DNA of 64,000 bases, from contig NZ_CP058648.1 of the NCBI RefSeq assembly GCF_018141405.1, positions 3,002,502-3,066,501 on the forward strand, read 5' to 3'. The notes under the pieces are model-generated. The model saw only the letters and a program-made list of their open reading frames with translations. It searched no databases and was not told where the DNA came from. This DNA comes from Serpentinicella alkaliphila (GTDB lineage: Bacteria > Bacillota > Clostridia > Peptostreptococcales > Natronincolaceae). Below are positions 35,200 to 43,116 of this stretch, in pieces. Each line of letters opens with the position of its first letter. Within the stretch, counting starts at the first letter, position 1. The position numbers were made by a program, and so were the translations under genes.

Positions 35200-36479
35200 T
35201 TAAGTAACTCTTTTGATGTTCATCTGGTGTGATGATTTTAATTCTTTTTCATCACGAAGTATTGCAAATACAATGTTACAGACTTTGTGCATAACTGCAC
35301 CAAGGGCGACCTTTTTAGGCTTCGACTGACATTTCTTTAAATAGTAATCACGTAACACTGGATTTTTTGCTGAACCATCTCGGTTCTTACTGATACTAAT
35401 TAAGGCCATTGTATGAAGTACCCTTCTGGCAATACGGGAACCTCGTTTTGACATAGTGATTTTAGAGCCTTCAAACTTTCCGGATTGTTTTACAGCAGGA
35501 TCCAAGCCAAAGCAAGCAAAAAGTTGCTTAGGTGAGCGAAAAGCGGAGAAATCTCCAATTTCGCCCATCAAGCTTACAGCAGATAGAAAACCAGCTCCTT
35601 TGTAAGACTCAATCAGATGGATTTGCTTTACAAAATCAGTAGTTTCATTAGCATCAACCAATTCATGCATATCAGAAAGAATGGATGATATTTCATCATC
35701 ATAGTTTCTGATGATGCGAATATATAAGCGAATGCGTGTAAAGTTACTGCTTAGGGAATAACCAAAGGAATTGGCATCGTTTGCGGCCTTAATTATGTCA
35801 TTATACTTATTAGTATCATATGTAAGCCCAAACCTAGCTGTAGAACGTATGGAATTAATAATCTCATCTTTAGAGGCATTTAGAAATGCGTCAGGAGATG
35901 TATAGTTTTCCAATAAGGTTAGAGATGTATTTGTAGTTATTTTAGAAAATATTTTTAAATACTGTGGAAATACCATTCGCAGTTCACCGTTTAACTTATT
36001 CACATAAGCAGAGCGGTTATCCATCAGGTCATAATACTCTCTTGAAAGATTCCTTAAATTGAGGGCTAGGTCAGATGGCATAAGAGATACCTTTAAATCA
36101 GGCTTTAGACCAACTAAGGCAGCCTTTTTTAAATCAAAACGGTCATTATGCACTTTTCTAATGTTAATGTTTGTGCTATTCTTAGTGATGATAGGATTGA
36201 TAACTGAGCAGTTAAAACCTTATCACGAAGATAGCAGAAGAGTGGGTAATGATAAATTCCCGTGGATTCCAGAAAGATGCGACTTTCTAAGGAATACAGC
36301 TCTTCTGCTTCTTTTATTTTAGAAACAGCTAGGCTTAAGGAATTGAGGTCAGAATGTAGGATCTTAAAATGTTTTGCTACAAAGGTTTGATTAGGAAGTG
36401 CGATAGACATAAAGCTGAAGTCTGCACCAACATTAATACCAACCGAAATAAATAAGTTTTCAAATAAAATATTTGACAT
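35200..36479 (-). pseudogene. Second IS110-family transposase, one frameshift
   Basis: About 426 codons from ATG 36479 (AAGGAGC upstream). N-terminal part: FISVGINVGADFSFMSIALP and FLESTGIYHYPL. Next, RDK then GFNCSVINPIITKNSTNINI only in another frame: a single base is missing in the G-run near 36219. The rest, VHNDRFDLKKAALVGLKPD and FACFGLDPAVKQSGKF, is intact. The first catalytic acid position reads GIN rather than GID. This is a different lineage from the copy at 11-12 kb. Confidence 0.88.
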
Positions 36480-36839
36480 GAGTAAAAGCTCCTTTCCGAT
36501 AGGAATCCATTTCCATCTAATGAGTACACAGCCTTGCGAGTTATACGGGTATAGCCTGAGGCTCCCAACCAGCCGAATCATAAAACCTCATTGAATGGAC
36601 TAATTGACTAAATCATAGGTATGGGTCAGTAGAAACTGACTTCCCAAGGAGGAATCCTATCCTTGAAGATTATACCTTATGAAACAACTGGTGGTCTATC
36701 TGGAAACCGTCAGACATGATAACTAATAAGTAACTTCTGATGAAGGAGGAATACCTTCTTCAGTTACTTGAATATATTGAAAAGATTAACTATGTATAGC
36801 CATAATAGCTATATCATTATTATACAAGGAGGAATTTAA
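36480..36839 (-). ncRNA. IS110 leader with candidate bridge-RNA hairpin
   Basis: This non-coding stretch upstream of the transposase holds a strong hairpin at 36728-36769, AAGTAACT paired with AGTTACTT and an inner GAAGG/CCTTC stem. It also has GAGG-rich and internal-loop sequence between 36600 and 36720. The position matches the IS110 bridge RNA. Exact ends and guide loops are not resolved. The last ~30 bases include the AAGGAGGA site of the next gene. Confidence 0.4.
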
Positions 36840-37328
36840 TTGAATAATGAGAAATTAATCGAAGAAAAGCTTAGAATCGAAGACACACTAAAGAATGGTG
36901 CAGGATGGTTTTATTGGATTGCAGGATTATCTTTAATAAATAGTCTTCTAATGCTTTTCAGTAGTGATTGGAGTTTCGTAGCTGGGCTAAGTATTACTCA
37001 AATAATAGATTATATTGCATATGACCTATCGCTGGAATTAGGTGGTGCAGTAACTATTATCGGCCTTATAATAAATCTAATAATTATTGGATTATATGTT
37101 CTTCTAGGGGTATTTGCTAATAAAGGTCGAAACTGGAGCTTTATAGTAGGGTTTATCCTATACGGCTTAGATACTTTATTATTAGTTTTTATAATGGATT
37201 ATGTAAGTATTATTTTCCACGTAATGGCTCTGTACTCAATATTTAAAGGGTATAAAGCTAATAAACAGCTTAAAGAACTTACGGGGAATCTAGAGGAGTT
37301 AAGTAGTACACATCTGCAGGAAGCATAG
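36840..37328 (+). CDS. Hypothetical integral membrane protein
   Basis: TTG start with AAGGAGG upstream. 162 residues, about four or five membrane segments (WFYWIAGLSLINSLLMLF, then VTIIGLIINLIIIGLYVLLG, and WSFIVGFILYGLDTLLLVFI), with short charged ends. No catalytic motif. It is divergent from the IS110 remnant, and the leader of that element may have displaced its original promoter. Confidence 0.7.
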   Translation: MNNEKLIEEKLRIEDTLKNGAGWFYWIAGLSLINSLLMLFSSDWSFVAGLSITQIIDYIAYDLSLELGGAVTIIGLIINLIIIGLYVLLGVFANKGRNWSFIVGFILYGLDTLLLVFIMDYVSIIFHVMALYSIFKGYKANKQLKELTGNLEELSSTHLQEA

Positions 37329-37361
37329 GATTTCAGCCCACTAATAGTGGGCTTTATTAAT

Positions 37362-37874
37362 TCAGATAATGCTATTATTATACATAGTATTTAATTTAGT
37401 AAGTAATTCAGTTGCCTCACTTTCAGAAAAATCTCTTTTAGGAATAATATATCCAGCTGTATCACTTGTAAAAATGTATATACTATTTACATCCTGTGTA
37501 ATGGTTTTTACATTATCCCACGGAACAAATACTTCTTTTTTTATCTTAATTTCTCTTATACCCTCAGAGGAAATCTCCATGTCATATTTTCCCAGTAAGC
37601 TAAGCCCGGTTTTAAGCAACTTATTTAATTGTCTTTTAGGATAAGTGACATACCAATATATCAATACTAACTCTGTAAAAATAAATAAAAATATTAACTT
37701 GTATACATCAGTAATTAAATTTGCAATGAATATTAATCCTAATAATAAGGGTGGGGTCAAAATAGTAAATATAAAATTAAAAATATAACTTCTTCTCATA
37801 ACTGGATGGTGTTTTAAAATATATTTTAAATAGTACCATTGGTCCTCTTCATTAAGTGTATAGGAGATTTTCAT
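37362..37874 (-). CDS. YcxB-like domain membrane protein
   Basis: 170 residues from the second ATG (37874). N-terminal soluble strand (KISYTLNEEDQWYYLKYIL), two adjacent membrane segments at about 30-75, then a PH-like domain with FVPWDNVKTITQDVNSIYIF, followed by IIPKRDFSE. This matches the YcxB-like family (membrane anchor plus a small beta domain). Function unknown. Confidence 0.75.
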   Translation of the reverse strand: MKISYTLNEEDQWYYLKYILKHHPVMRRSYIFNFIFTILTPPLLLGLIFIANLITDVYKLIFLFIFTELVLIYWYVTYPKRQLNKLLKTGLSLLGKYDMEISSEGIREIKIKKEVFVPWDNVKTITQDVNSIYIFTSDTAGYIIPKRDFSESEATELLTKLNTMYNNSII

Positions 37875-37942
37875 CAATATCCCTCATTTCTCAGTTTAAT
37901 AATATTATGTCACAATAAATAGTTATAGAAACAGATAATTTA

Positions 37943-37974
37943 TAAAAAAGTGGTTCTTAAACAAGAACCACTAA
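37943..37974 (-). terminator. Terminator of tandem copy 1
   Basis: AGTGGTTCTT-loop-AAGAACCACT followed on the minus strand by a T-run; each of the three tandem genes ends in such a hairpin. Confidence 0.9.
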
Positions 37975-37989
37975 ATTAATCCTAACTTA

Positions 37990-38238
37990 CTATAGTACTT
38001 CAACAGTACCTCCTGCTTTTTGAACGGAATTAACTATATCTGCAACTTTAAAACTCCCACATAAAAATGGTAGCCTAATAATTAGACATATACCACTTGG
38101 TGATGTAAGTTCAATTAAATTTAATAAATTAATTACAGCTCCAGCTGGAATAAATATACGAAGAACCGTTCCTGGTAGCTGTGGACATGGTTTAGGGCAA
38201 TGACTTGGTGGTAATGGTGATCCTACTGGTACTCTCAT
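37990..38238 (-). CDS. Tandem small protein, copy 1 (82 residues)
   Basis: Proline- and cysteine-rich start (MRVPVGSPLPPSHCPKPCPQ), then the invariant hydrophobic block IFIPAGAVINLLNLIELTS and PSGICLIIRLP, and a C-terminus predicted as helix plus strand (ADIVNSVQKAGGTVEVL). No signal peptide. Three adjacent copies share this plan; copy 1 is the most diverged. Upstream lies the box TTTTGCACTACATACTATG (38257-38275). Family not recognised; the context (spore former, own units, next to a glycosyltransferase) suggests a spore-surface protein, by inference only. Confidence 0.82.
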   Translation of the reverse strand: MRVPVGSPLPPSHCPKPCPQLPGTVLRIFIPAGAVINLLNLIELTSPSGICLIIRLPFLCGSFKVADIVNSVQKAGGTVEVL

Positions 38239-38256
38239 TTTTTCTCCCCCTTTCTC

Positions 38257-38275
38257 TTTTGCACTACATACTATG
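38257..38275 (-). promoter_or_regulatory. Conserved promoter-like box, copy 1
   Basis: CATAGTATGTAGTGCAAAA on the minus strand, about 18 bases before the start. It is identical before all three copies, while sequence further upstream is unrelated. CATAnnnT resembles the -10 of mother-cell sporulation sigma factors (E/K). Confidence 0.6.
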
Positions 38276-38360
38276 TTGACTTAATCTAAAGGTTACATAT
38301 GAAGAAAGTAGCTTTTTTCTTAAATTTTCAATTATAAAAATTAATCTAAAACCCTATTAG

Positions 38361-38392
38361 CATTTAAAGGTGGTTCGTATGAACCACCTTTG
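38361..38392 (-). terminator. Terminator of tandem copy 2
   Basis: AAAGGTGGTTC-GTAT-GAACCACCTTT, a perfect 11-bp stem, at about 38366-38391. Confidence 0.9.
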
Positions 38393-38393
38393 A

Positions 38394-38645
38394 TTATTCT
38401 TGAACTACTTCTACACTACCCCCAGCCTGCTGCACTGAGTTTAGAATGCTTGCAAAATTGAAATTTCCGCCACCTAGTAATGGTAGTCTTATAATTAAGC
38501 ATATTCCACTAGGTGATGTTAGCTCTATAAGGTTTAACAGATTAATTACTGCTCCCGCTGGAATGAAAATTCTTAATATTGTTCCTGGCAACTGTGGGCA
38601 TGGACTTACAGGTTTTGGTGGTATATAACCTTTTTGAACTCTCAT
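38394..38645 (-). CDS. Tandem small protein, copy 2 (83 residues)
   Basis: Begins MRVQKGYIPPKPVSPCPQLP, then the shared ILRIFIPAGAVINLLNLIE block and GICLIIRLPLLGGGNFNFAS; ends ILNSVQQAGGSVEVVQE. Near-identical at DNA level to copy 3 and more diverged from copy 1, so 2 and 3 arose by recent duplication. Own box at 38663-38681 and own terminator. The ribosome site is GGGGGAG. The unusual feature is a long, uncharged, aliphatic central segment with no membrane topology signal, as in self-assembling coat proteins; that is an inference. Confidence 0.85.
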   Translation of the reverse strand: MRVQKGYIPPKPVSPCPQLPGTILRIFIPAGAVINLLNLIELTSPSGICLIIRLPLLGGGNFNFASILNSVQQAGGSVEVVQE

Positions 38646-38662
38646 TTTTCTCCCCCTTTCTC

Positions 38663-38681
38663 TTTTGCACTACATACTATG
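38663..38681 (-). promoter_or_regulatory. Conserved promoter-like box, copy 2
   Basis: The same 19-base CATAGTATGTAGTGCAAAA box, minus strand, 17-18 bases before the start. Confidence 0.6.
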
Positions 38682-38740
38682 CTGTCCCAATATAAGAGTG
38701 ACAAATAGAACACCAAAATCATTATATTAATGCCAAAAAT

Positions 38741-38769
38741 AAATAGGTGGCTTCTCGAGCCACCTATGT
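38741..38769 (-). terminator. Terminator of tandem copy 3
   Basis: ATAGGTGGCTT-CTCG-AGCCACCTAT at 38743-38767, weak T-run. Confidence 0.8.
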
Positions 38770-39024
38770 TTATTCTTGAACTACTTCTACACTACCCTCA
38801 GCCTGCTACACTGAGTTTAGAATGCTTGCAAAATTGAAATTTCCGCCACCTAGTAATGGTAGTCTTATAATTAAGCATATTCCACTAGGTGATGTTAGCA
38901 CTATAAGGTTTAAAAGATTAATTACTGCTCCCGCTGGAATGAAAATTCTTAATACAATTCCTGGCAACTGTGGACATGGACTTACAGGTGGTTTTGGTGG
39001 TATATGACCTCTTTGTACGTTCAT
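38770..39024 (-). pseudogene. Tandem small protein, copy 3, premature stop
   Basis: 85 codons align with copy 2 (starts MNVQRGHIPPKPPVSPCPQL), but TAG at 38806-38808 replaces a CAG after ILNSV, giving 72 residues. The codons beyond the stop still encode QAEGSVEVVQE, almost identical to copy 2, so the stop is recent. The short form could still be functional, because the hydrophobic core is complete; it lacks only the C-terminal strand. Box at 39042-39060. Confidence 0.8.
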
Positions 39025-39041
39025 TTATCTCCCCTTTATCT

Positions 39042-39060
39042 TTTTGCACTACATACTATG
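39042..39060 (-). promoter_or_regulatory. Conserved promoter-like box, copy 3
   Basis: CATAGTATGTAGTGCAAAA on the minus strand; see copies 1 and 2. Confidence 0.6.
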
Positions 39061-39109
39061 CTTAATTATTTATTATGTGCTTCTTACAGGATACGCAAAA
39101 CTTTACTAA

Positions 39110-40909
39110 TCACTTAATTATGGATATATACTCTTTTAATATATCATCAGCAATATTTTTTATATCAAACTTTTCTGCAACCCATTTACGACTGGATTCT
39201 CCTATAAATAATAAGTTTTCCTTTGATGATATAATTAATTTCAGGCATTTAAGTAATCTATTTGTATTGTAATCATCACAGGAATTATGATCACCAAAAT
39301 AATTTAACCAGGCTTCGTTAAAAACCTTAGGCTCTACTAATCCAAAATAACCATGGTTCCCCATGGCTACTACAGGTTTACCACAGAACATAGCTTCTAA
39401 TGCAACTCTACCCGCTCCGACTACACAATCACTACCAGTATAACAATTTCTTAAATCTAATCTCTCACCTAACAGGTGTATAAATTTTCTATTAGAACTA
39501 AAACAAATTTGCTTAGACAGATTTTCTACAGTATTCATATTTTGACCTGTACCGACAACAACCAAATGTACGTCTCGTTTAGTGATTTTTCTTAGCTCGT
39601 TACATACATGCATGAGTTTTTTACATGCAATCAATTTTCCCCATGCTAAGCGACTTACATATAAAATAACAAAAGCATCTAAGGGTATATTTAATTCATT
39701 CCTTAATGTACTATTACTTTCAGGATAGAATTCCATTGTATCAATGCCATTAGGTATTAGAGTAGAATTGACATTGTGGTTTAATAAATATTTCTTTACA
39801 GGTTCACTAACACTAATTACCTTTGAACATTTTTTTAAATGTGGCATTAAATGCTTATAGTAAAGACCATGTATAGTAAAAATACTTGGAATTTTAATTT
39901 TACCTAATAAATTTAAAGTTGCTAAACCTGAAGTTGGATGATGCAAATGCACTATATTGATGTTCTTGCTTTCTATAATACTCCTAATTTGTTTTTCAAA
40001 AGATTCCCTCTCTTTTTTTAGTAGATATATGGGACATCCAATTTTTTTAAAATCCCCATAAAGATTACCATTTCTCCCAGCTATAACTACATTTGCACCC
40101 ATTTTGACTAAGTATTTTGATAAGGTTAATACATATGTTTCTGTACCACCCACATCCATACCATCTAATATCATCAATACTCGTATATCCTTATGTTGAT
40201 AATTTTTTAGTTTTTTTTTACTATAAAATTTTTTAGAACGTTGTTTTGGATGTGCTCTATAGTAGTATAATACCTCTTGAATATTATCAACACCCTCACC
40301 TATAAATTTAGAAATAACCTCATAATCCTCAGCCCCTACAAGCCTTCTTGTCGGGCCACCTAACTTGTCAAAAATTTCAGCACGAAATAAAATAGTACCA
40401 TGACATACACAATGATTACCTCTACTATAGCTTTCCTTTATATTATTGAGTCCATATTTAAGCCATAGATTTTTCGTTTGCTTATTAAAATTCCCATCCT
40501 CAAATGCTACATAATTAGTTCCTACAACAGCAATATTCTTATTTTTACTTAGAAAATTAACTTGCTTTTCAATACGTTTTTCGTGTGAAATATCATCAGC
40601 ATCCTGTACTGCAATAAACTCACCTTTTGCCATAAAAAAACCAAGATTTAACGCACCTGCAAATCCAATATTTCTAGGCAACTTAATATAATATAGTATA
40701 TCTTTCCTATGAAACCTACTTAAATTTTCCTTTTCCCATTTTTTAATAATATGTTCAGAAGAGTCTGTTGATCCATCATCAATCACTATAATTTCAATCT
40801 CTTTATATGTTTGATTTAAAATGCTATTTAAACATTCCTCAATATATCTTCCGTTATTATAATTTGTTATAACAATGCTAACTAAATTTTTTATTCTTGT
40901 AATAGTCAA
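39110..40909 (-). CDS. Two-domain glycosyltransferase (GT2 + GT4 fusion)
   Basis: 599 residues. TTG start 40909 behind GGCAGGTG. Residues 1-240: GT2/GT-A fold with SIVITNYNNGRYIEECLNSI, VIDDGSTDSS, VQDADD (DxD) and GAEDYEV. Residues 245-599: GT4/GT-B fold with LDGMDVGGTETYVLTLSKYL, FTIHGLY, LIPNGID and RVALEAMFCGKPVVAMG. The two modules could add two different sugars in succession. No signal peptide, so it acts in the cytosol. It is the gene upstream of the tandem array on the same strand; glycosylation of those proteins is only a proposal. Confidence 0.9.
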   Translation of the reverse strand: MTITRIKNLVSIVITNYNNGRYIEECLNSILNQTYKEIEIIVIDDGSTDSSEHIIKKWEKENLSRFHRKDILYYIKLPRNIGFAGALNLGFFMAKGEFIAVQDADDISHEKRIEKQVNFLSKNKNIAVVGTNYVAFEDGNFNKQTKNLWLKYGLNNIKESYSRGNHCVCHGTILFRAEIFDKLGGPTRRLVGAEDYEVISKFIGEGVDNIQEVLYYYRAHPKQRSKKFYSKKKLKNYQHKDIRVLMILDGMDVGGTETYVLTLSKYLVKMGANVVIAGRNGNLYGDFKKIGCPIYLLKKERESFEKQIRSIIESKNINIVHLHHPTSGLATLNLLGKIKIPSIFTIHGLYYKHLMPHLKKCSKVISVSEPVKKYLLNHNVNSTLIPNGIDTMEFYPESNSTLRNELNIPLDAFVILYVSRLAWGKLIACKKLMHVCNELRKITKRDVHLVVVGTGQNMNTVENLSKQICFSSNRKFIHLLGERLDLRNCYTGSDCVVGAGRVALEAMFCGKPVVAMGNHGYFGLVEPKVFNEAWLNYFGDHNSCDDYNTNRLLKCLKLIISSKENLLFIGESSRKWVAEKFDIKNIADDILKEYISIIK

Positions 40910-40999
40910 CTTTTACACCTGCCTACTATATTAAGTGTTGTATTTTTTTGTTTTCCTATATTGTCAGTATATTTTATGTGTATCTATTTTTTCGGTGAT

Positions 41000-41046
41000 A
41001 TAAAATAAAAAAGCAACTTTACTACTTATCGTAGAAAATTGCTTCC
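41000..41046 (-). terminator. Terminator downstream of the abfD cluster
   Basis: On the minus strand AAGCAA...CTAC-GATA-AGTAG...TTGCTT is followed by a T-rich run, about 65 bases after the last cluster gene. Confidence 0.7.
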
Positions 41047-41108
41047 AAAGGGAAGTTACTTAAAAAATTATATACTAATACTTACATGGGGGATATAAGT
41101 ATTATATG

Positions 41109-41366
41109 TCATTTAAAACCATTGAAAAATAACTGTATATCAAATTCCGTGGAAATAATATACCTATAACCGCGATCTTTGATTTCTTCTACATTTACAC
41201 ACTGCCGTTTACATCCTGATATTATCCAAATATAATCAAAACCATTATTTGAATTAGCAGAATGAAAGGTATATATATTACTATACTTAACTTTAACTGC
41301 TTCATACAAAGCATTTCTATCATACATTGGATTACAGCCACCACAATATTTAATGCCAATTTTCAA
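41109..41366 (-). CDS. Small CGGCNP-motif cysteine protein linked to abfD
   Basis: 85 residues: MKIGIKYCGGCNPMYDRNAL with a CxxC in a CGGCNPxYDR motif, later GCKRQC, and no other known domain. The CxxC pairs suggest metal, Fe-S or thiol chemistry. The motif is seen in small clostridial proteins near fermentation genes. It lies 10 bases after the NifU-like gene, in the abfD set, so an accessory role in the dehydratase cluster or its repair is possible. Confidence 0.75.
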   Translation of the reverse strand: MKIGIKYCGGCNPMYDRNALYEAVKVKYSNIYTFHSANSNNGFDYIWIISGCKRQCVNVEEIKDRGYRYIISTEFDIQLFFNGFK

Positions 41367-41376
41367 GAGAAATCTC

Positions 41377-41655
41377 CTATCTATTTTTTCTTATAATATT
41401 TAGTACTTCTTCTATCAATTCATCACTCACTGAGTTATCTAAAACTACTTCTTTAACTTCTGGGATACTATCTTTAAGTGTTGATTCAACTAAGTCTTCC
41501 ATTGTAAATACGGCAGAAGGACAATGACTACAACTTCCAAGTAATTTAACTGTAACCACGCCATCATTTACATCTACCAATTCAATATCACCATAGTGTT
41601 TCATTAATTCCGGTCTAATTTTAGTTTCCAGAACACTTTTAACCATCTCTAACAC
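41377..41655 (-). CDS. NifU-type C-terminal domain Fe-S scaffold protein
   Basis: 92 residues. The NifU-C motif is VKLLGSCSHCPSAVFTMEDL (CxxC), with the following helix. Such single-domain proteins assemble and transfer 4Fe-4S clusters. It sits 12 bases after abfD, whose product needs a 4Fe-4S cluster, suggesting a dedicated maturation factor. Confidence 0.88.
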   Translation of the reverse strand: MLEMVKSVLETKIRPELMKHYGDIELVDVNDGVVTVKLLGSCSHCPSAVFTMEDLVESTLKDSIPEVKEVVLDNSVSDELIEEVLNIIRKNR

Positions 41656-41667
41656 GACGGAACCTCC

Positions 41668-43116
41668 TTAGTTAATGCCTGCAATTTTTTTAGCTAACTG
41701 TTTTTTATGTTTTAAATTACCTTGTCTTGCTATCATTACTCTCTGAGCCTGAGGTGAGCCTGCCCCATGTAATGATTCAGTTCTATATCCAACAGCCGCT
41801 GAACCAAGAGTAATGTTTTCTATTAATCTTAATATTCTTAGACGATGCTCAGTTGGCGTACCATCAACACCTCTAAAGTATTTATCTATATATTTACCCA
41901 ATGTAGGATCTTTAAAATCAGCCTCTGACGGCATAGTTACCATTAAACCTCCAGCAATATCTTCTGCAATTCTAGCTATTTCATATGGAAACCTAGTTAC
42001 ATTTTGTTTGCAAACATTAGCTAATAATAGGTCTATTTGATAATTACCTGCTTTTGTTTCATGACCTTCGGAAGAACAAGCAATTCCACAGCAATAGAGA
42101 GTTTCATTTAAATGTGTCATCTCAATTAATTTATCTTTTATATGAGAGGCTTTATCTGCCCCGTTATACTCAGCAGCAACAGCCGCAGCACCTATTAAAA
42201 CATCTCCTACTCCAACTTTACATCCACCATAGCTCTGTCTATGATACCCAGCGAATCTTTCAACCAAAATTCCAGATAGATCTGTTTCCCCATTTAAAAA
42301 GATTCTATCATTAGGAACAAAGACATCATCAAATACAACTAAAGCTTCGTGTCCACCAAATGTCTTATTACCTACATCTATATCTCCACCCTCTAGCTTT
42401 CTAGTATCGCAAGATTGTCTTCCGTATATCATAAATATGCCTTCCGAATTAGTTGGAACTGCAAAGGAAACAGCCCAATCCTTATCTTCCGGTCCCATAG
42501 CTATGGTTGGCATAACTAGAACTTCATGGGAATTAACAATTCCAGTTTGATGTGCCTTAGCACCCCTAACTACAATCCCATCCTCTCGTCTTTCAACAAC
42601 CCTTAAAAACAAATCTGGATCTGCCTGTTTGCTTGGGGCTAAACCTCTATTTCCTTTAGGGTCTGTCATTGCTCCATCAACTGTTAAATCATTTTCCTGA
42701 ACATATTGTAAGAAATTTTTAAAGTTTTCATGATATCTAGTATTATATACTTCATCAACCTCATATGTCGTGCTGAACACTGCATTAAAAGCATCCATAC
42801 CAACACAACGTTGGAAACAGGCTGCTGTTTTTTGTCCTAATAGCCTAAGCATCTTAATCTTTTTCACTAGGTCATCAGCACTTTGATGTACATGAGTAAA
42901 TCTATTAATTTTCTCCCCATTCAAACTAGATTTTACGGTCATTAAATCTTCGTACATAGGGTCTAGGGCTAGTTCATAGGTCATAGCAACTGAATTTAGT
43001 GAAGGTCTAATAATTGGATCATCTACAGGATTTTCAACTAATTTACCAAACATATAAACTTTAAGCTTTAGCTTTCTAATACTTTCAATATACTGCTCTT
43101 TAGTCATTAATGGCAT
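41668..43116 (-). CDS. abfD: 4-hydroxybutyryl-CoA dehydratase / vinylacetyl-CoA isomerase
   Basis: 482 residues, close to the 490 of the clostridial enzyme. The 4Fe-4S ligands are present: CFQRC (CxxxC) near residue 100 and HRQSYGGC (HxxxxxxC) near residue 295, as in Clostridium aminobutyricum AbfD. FAD-binding and substrate segments KAHQTGIVNSHEV and YGRQSCDTR also fit. It converts 4-hydroxybutyryl-CoA to crotonyl-CoA, a radical dehydration of GABA/4-hydroxybutyrate or succinate fermentation. The rest of that pathway is not in this window. Transcribed from a sigma-54-type promoter. Confidence 0.93.
   Translation of the reverse strand: MPLMTKEQYIESIRKLKLKVYMFGKLVENPVDDPIIRPSLNSVAMTYELALDPMYEDLMTVKSSLNGEKINRFTHVHQSADDLVKKIKMLRLLGQKTAACFQRCVGMDAFNAVFSTTYEVDEVYNTRYHENFKNFLQYVQENDLTVDGAMTDPKGNRGLAPSKQADPDLFLRVVERREDGIVVRGAKAHQTGIVNSHEVLVMPTIAMGPEDKDWAVSFAVPTNSEGIFMIYGRQSCDTRKLEGGDIDVGNKTFGGHEALVVFDDVFVPNDRIFLNGETDLSGILVERFAGYHRQSYGGCKVGVGDVLIGAAAVAAEYNGADKASHIKDKLIEMTHLNETLYCCGIACSSEGHETKAGNYQIDLLLANVCKQNVTRFPYEIARIAEDIAGGLMVTMPSEADFKDPTLGKYIDKYFRGVDGTPTEHRLRILRLIENITLGSAAVGYRTESLHGAGSPQAQRVMIARQGNLKHKKQLAKKIAGIN

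Follow-up and report, generated by a model that had tools for sequence, protein, structure and literature searches.

The window analysed here is a stretch of 64 000 nucleotides from Serpentinicella alkaliphila (contig NZ_CP058648.1, positions 3 002 502–3 066 501 of the forward strand). It contains three neighbouring paralogous open reading frames (ORFs), all on its minus strand, whose products carry the motif CPQLPG, as a first-pass annotation of this DNA had recognized, and a glycosyltransferase gene lies next to them.

37990–38238, minus strand: copy 1, an 82-amino-acid family protein (family profile match, E = 2.4e-36)
38394–38645, minus strand: copy 2, an 83-amino-acid family protein (family profile match, E = 2.7e-38)
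38806–39024, minus strand: copy 3, 72 amino acids, ended early by an in-frame TAG; homologous codons continue to about 38773
39110–40909, minus strand: two-domain glycosyltransferase (Glycos_transf_2, family 2, 8.5e-41; Glyco_transf_4, family 4, 8.8e-22), just upstream of the three genes

Farther out, a NifU-like gene (41377–41655) lies downstream of an ORF (41668–43116) that we take to resemble 4-hydroxybutyryl-CoA dehydratase, and two overlapping ORFs at 35200–36581 presumably resemble a frameshifted IS110-type transposase.

Sequence identity between copies 2 and 3 is 94% over 242 nt, and copy 1 matches either of them at 77% over 134 nt. The substitution rates between copies 1 and 2 (dN of 0.18, saturated dS, dN/dS of about 0.06) show strong purifying selection. 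The comparison of copies 2 and 3 gives a dN of 0.044, a dS of 0.069 and a dN/dS of about 0.64; the in-frame TAG of copy 3, which is CAG in copy 2, removes the last 11 residues, and copy 3 is also altered at T22 and E41, two positions with at least 90% conservation across the family. The elevated ratio, the premature stop and the changes at two nearly invariant residues lead us to regard copy 3 as probably a recent duplicate that is losing its function. Its promoter is intact despite the premature TAG. Readthrough of this codon with pyrrolysine was considered and rejected, since no PylS scored above the cut-off. The first-pass annotation had the three genes and their shared box right, but missed this truncation, the −35 element of the promoter and a fourth promoter at the glycosyltransferase gene, both of which are described below.

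That shared box, the 19-base sequence CATAGTATGTAGTGCAAAA, was said to be identical at each gene, and it is: three occurrences without a mismatch are found in the window, where 0.02 would be expected by chance at up to three mismatches, and in the 3.26-Mb genome they are the sole matches with fewer than three mismatches. A −35-like AC dinucleotide precedes each of them, such that AC-N16-CATAGTAT stands in front of all three copies.

38257–38275, minus strand: box of copy 1, comprising the −10 element CATAGTAT and the bases after it
38292–38293, minus strand: −35 AC of copy 1, 16 bases ahead of the −10 element
38663–38681, minus strand: box of copy 2, comprising the −10 element CATAGTAT and the bases after it
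38698–38699, minus strand: −35 AC of copy 2, spacer of 16
39042–39060, minus strand: box of copy 3, comprising the −10 element CATAGTAT and the bases after it
39077–39078, minus strand: −35 AC of copy 3, spacer of 16

Because the AC and −10 elements recur ahead of family members from other genera, we read the box as part of a promoter: on this sequence evidence it is the −10 element of a sigma-K-type promoter together with the bases that follow, and not a stand-alone operator. A promoter rather than a special operator thus accounts for what had looked like a mysterious repeated box. The bases after the −10 element (RTAnTG, then an A-rich stretch) are partly conserved across the family; they may belong to the start region that sigma-K promoters of these organisms ordinarily have, or be a special feature. 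It is very unlikely that the box is a separate binding site for a repressor or activator, or a functionless remnant of recent duplication. Shared descent does explain part of its identity, given the 94% identity of copies 2 and 3 and the near-identical leaders of copies 1 and 2, but the box keeps a fixed position relative to the AC and to the start codon, its elements recur before family genes of other genera, and it is unchanged between copies 1 and 2 even though these are saturated at silent sites.

The DNA outside the boxes and genes had been described as unrelated. For the 60 bases upstream this is true of copies 1 and 3, whose alignment against shuffled sequences revealed no similarity, but copies 1 and 2 align better than 500 of 500 shuffles, with a near-identical stretch from box to ATG, and the −35 AC is equally spaced in all three copies; for copies 2 and 3, 2.8% of shuffles align as well. 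The suggestion that each gene has its own terminator can likewise be kept only in part. A hairpin is found 3′ of all three genes, but only at copies 1 and 3 does it lead into a clear U-run on the gene's strand.

37949–37972, minus strand: terminator hairpin of copy 1, with a T-run after the hairpin
38364–38393, minus strand: hairpin after copy 2, with a T-run that is weak on the gene's strand (the terminator listing gives this hairpin on the plus strand only)
38743–38767, minus strand: terminator hairpin after copy 3, with a clear U-run on the gene's strand

A search of the region 37000–41200 for RNA elements gave no Rfam match.

The −10 element had been likened to those recognized by sigma E or sigma K. 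According to the Clostridioides difficile study (PMC3789822), the −10 elements of the two factors are very similar and the −35 element distinguishes them, sigma K using AC and sigma E using ATA. We collected 54 distinct upstream sequences from 76 family ORFs (window copies included, two ORFs without a start codon omitted). The exact pattern AC-N15..17-CATANNNT is present in 37 of these, whereas a control set of 292 other genes from those loci has it in 11 (Fisher p = 7e-27), and it occurs in 131 of 5400 shuffles; the 17 upstream sequences that lack the exact motif include the Desulfosporosinus set. When the upstream sequences were anchored on the −10 element, requiring at least five of the six positions of CATANNAT, 43 of the 54 qualified, with AC at a spacing of 16 in 27 and of 17 in ten (37/43 in total) and the sigma-E-type ATA at the −35 position in none. 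Among upstream sequences from further genomes, which had not been used to define the pattern, the full motif was found in 13 of 30 against five of 336 controls; these 30 are what is left of 36 after six loci shared with the first set had been removed, the tally before removal being 19/36.

The genome encodes SigK (360.7 bits, against an NCBIfam cut-off of 298.65) and SpoIVA. The promoter evidence thus argues strongly that the three genes stand behind sigma-K-type promoters, which are conserved before family genes across the class and the phylum. The earlier sigma E/K guess is borne out and is narrowed to sigma K, since the −35 element is AC at 16–17 bases and not ATA. Control by sigma E in the early mother cell would be compatible with the closely similar −10 elements (PMC3789822), but the complete lack of ATA among the 43 anchored sequences and the prevalence of AC at the sigma-K spacing make it very improbable. 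The manganese catalase (cotJC-like) locus of this genome has no exact AC-N15..17-CATANNNT on its strand, and YabG, tried for promoter calibration, belongs to a family that was not found here.

A more specific form of the promoter pattern, AC-N16-CATANNATRTANTG, has four sites genome-wide, which are those of the three copies and one at the adjacent glycosyltransferase gene.

40965–40996, minus strand: fourth match to AC-N16-CATANNATRTANTG, in front of the glycosyltransferase gene

This site lies about 55 bases ahead of the glycosyltransferase start on the correct strand. Base composition gives a rough estimate of about one chance match per genome of this size, but its placement in front of this gene is hardly due to chance. 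Co-regulation of the glycosyltransferase with the three genes, and with it a role in glycosylation of the spore surface, is a possibility suggested by the shared pattern. Clustering of the neighbouring genes at 43 loci and in the window revealed no gene family, other than the family itself, that recurs near it in many lineages, and no conserved neighbours that link it to coat genes. Most of the clusters with members from four or five loci represent Desulfosporosinus synteny, and the window glycosyltransferase has two relatives among the neighbours, both weak.

Protein and profile searches found relatives in Alkaliphilus, Natronincola, Anaerosolibacter, Petroclostridium, Pseudobacteroides, Clostridium, Desulfosporosinus, Desulforamulus and Heliobacterium, as well as in many metagenome-derived genomes. 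Of 393 genomes sampled from the class, 23 contain the family by profile, as do 19 of 398 from the phylum (5–6%); there are one to three copies per genome, and tandem pairs are recurrent in relatives (G002, G012, G014 and G015). SpoIVA is found in 21 of the 23 carriers, compared with 286 of the 393 class genomes overall (Fisher p = 0.05; most of the class has SpoIVA), and in 20 of 21 when only strong family matches are counted (Fisher p = 0.02); of the two carriers that lack it, one has a weak family match and the other is a 92%-complete genome. The association has the direction expected of a sporulation family and by itself is weak. One contig titled Calditrichales (L036) carries a clostridial-type family gene behind a sigma-K-type promoter, and this bin may be mislabelled or contaminated.

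The proteins consist of a variable N-terminal arm, often rich in proline and lysine, and a conserved domain, about 65 residues long, in which the core CPQLPGTxLRIxIPAGAVINLLNLIExTSPSGICLIxRLPxLGG is followed by a predicted helix and then AGGTVEF. Two cysteines are conserved, one in the N-terminal CPQLPG and a nearly invariant one in SPSGICL, and no signal peptide is evident by eye. A divergent branch (L120, L121 and L122) has a coat-protein-like, tyrosine-rich C-terminal tail. The earlier impression that these proteins lack a known family is borne out by sequence searches of Pfam, NCBIfam and the PDB, in which single proteins and sets of 51 or 81 members gave scattered weak matches only and no family that covers the protein. 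The best PDB match, to Exonuclease 3′-5′ domain-containing protein 2 (E of about 0.001–0.005 over 23–27 residues), involves a short hydrophobic stretch and was judged to be due to chance. The peptide IPAGAVINLL had no literal match in any paper of the open library searched.

A structure model of the full protein reached a pLDDT of 53. The core alone was modelled from an alignment of 81 of 95 core sequences; the 14 omitted rows were fragments, the truncated copy 3, one antisense frame, near-duplicates and a doubtful weak match (L093). This core model has moderate confidence (pLDDT of 72, pTM of 0.50) and consists of four short strands, two helices and a last strand. Foldseek gave no match for it at E ≤ 0.001 in the PDB or among viral models, and the structural candidates 1t95 and 3ced were set aside with a best Z of 3.3, too low to be meaningful. 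F-ENA folds were absent among the structural matches listed, an absence that excludes nothing. Small spore proteins under sigma-K control are a well-known kind. We found no name or description of the present family in Pfam, NCBIfam or the literature searched, and its sequences and promoters suggest a new family of this kind.

We propose that the family comprises coat or exosporium proteins made late in sporulation under sigma-K control, and place the probability of this reading at roughly 0.7; localization and assembly are its inferred parts. Once engulfment is complete, RNA polymerase carrying sigma K would transcribe the copies as separate units in the mother cell, and the proteins would then be deposited in the coat or exosporium. 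There the β-rich domain could pack against copies of itself or against partner proteins, cross-links may form through the two conserved cysteines, and the putatively co-regulated glycosyltransferase may modify these proteins or others of the surface. That the proteins end up in the outer layers of the spore is suggested by analogy, from the small size, the low-complexity arm, the two conserved cysteines, the scatter of the family as single genes and its spread among spore formers. A structural role at the spore surface, as proposed in the first-pass annotation, would also fit late mother-cell expression and the putative co-regulation of the glycosyltransferase.

The proteins might instead be late sigma-K products that act within the mother cell, in assembly, processing or germination, and are not structural parts of the spore surface. 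The sigma-K regulon does include enzymes and assembly factors, such as sleC and dpaAB in the C. difficile study (PMC3789822), and the glycosyltransferase with the same promoter could be taken to favour a non-structural role. We nevertheless consider this unlikely, as no enzyme family or fold is matched, and the small size, the variable low-complexity arm, the lack of an evident signal peptide and the one to three copies per genome look more structural. A role unrelated to sporulation, for example as a phage-derived or toxin-like small protein, is scarcely credible: 44 of 81 members weakly match phrog_36527 (best E of 3.3e-4), such that a phage-borne relative may exist, but no phage or plasmid record matches beyond chance level, none was found in viral contigs, and both the promoter class and the spread among genomes point to sporulation.

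The proposal of a coat or exosporium protein can be taken further, to the subunit of a self-assembling spore layer or fibre, so far undescribed, in Clostridia and their relatives. The conserved domain would polymerize, the CPQLPG cysteine of one subunit would pair with the ICL cysteine of its neighbour, and each species would owe its surface properties to the variable arm and the glycosyltransferase. We offer this extension as speculation, with long odds. To our knowledge, the protein make-up of coat and exosporium is largely unknown for anaerobic spore formers, a few pathogens excepted. The family is a lead for finding a new component of the spore surface, and a family defined by sequence and accompanied by a conserved promoter is a usable marker of the late mother-cell programme in many genera.

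Among known systems, the phage family phrog_36527, which has no known function, has a weak profile similarity over about 38 residues with an E value near the threshold. The S-ENA proteins (Ena1/Ena2), as portrayed in PMC11952670, also have an N-terminal arm with a cysteine before a β domain, but the family core has only about 65 residues and there is no match in sequence or fold. The F-ENA subunits (DUF4183, PF13799) are similar in size (about 10 kDa), in being β-rich with an N-terminal arm and in their occurrence in spore formers of Bacilli and Clostridia (PMC11952670). They are described there as having strands A–E, whereas in the family model a helix precedes the last strand; their hook, M-P-hydrophobic-hydrophobic-polar-P-hydrophobic, is by eye not common to the variable arms of the family, and none of 81 family members matches PF13799 at E ≤ 1.

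The genome has a DUF4183 locus of its own about 42 kb past the window end (G000:C1:3108864-3112391, L142), in which a DUF4183 gene is accompanied by one for a 1004-residue anchor-like protein that DUF4183 matches three times and DUF11 twice. This is close to the combination of F-ENA-3 and its anchor (F-Anchor) described in Clostridium aceticum (PMC11952670). A YheC/D ATP-grasp gene follows these two. The locus has the promoter type of the family at some of its genes. A relaxed promoter pattern occurs at eight sites of the 10-kb DUF4183 stretch, both strands taken together, three of which lie directly before a start codon (those of the anchor, an 85-residue protein and a 64-residue ORF); the −10 element is followed by the box-like TAGTGCA at the 85-residue protein and TAGTGAA at the 64-residue ORF, and one of the three promoters reads AATAATATATAGTGCA. 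The DUF4183 subunit gene has no CATA at the corresponding upstream position.

The coat and exosporium genes of C. difficile under sigma-K control (cotA, cotE and bclA1-3) encode proteins for which comparison via Pfam and NCBIfam gave no family in common with ours. What they share, according to PMC3789822, is the AC/CATANNNT promoter and late timing in the mother cell.
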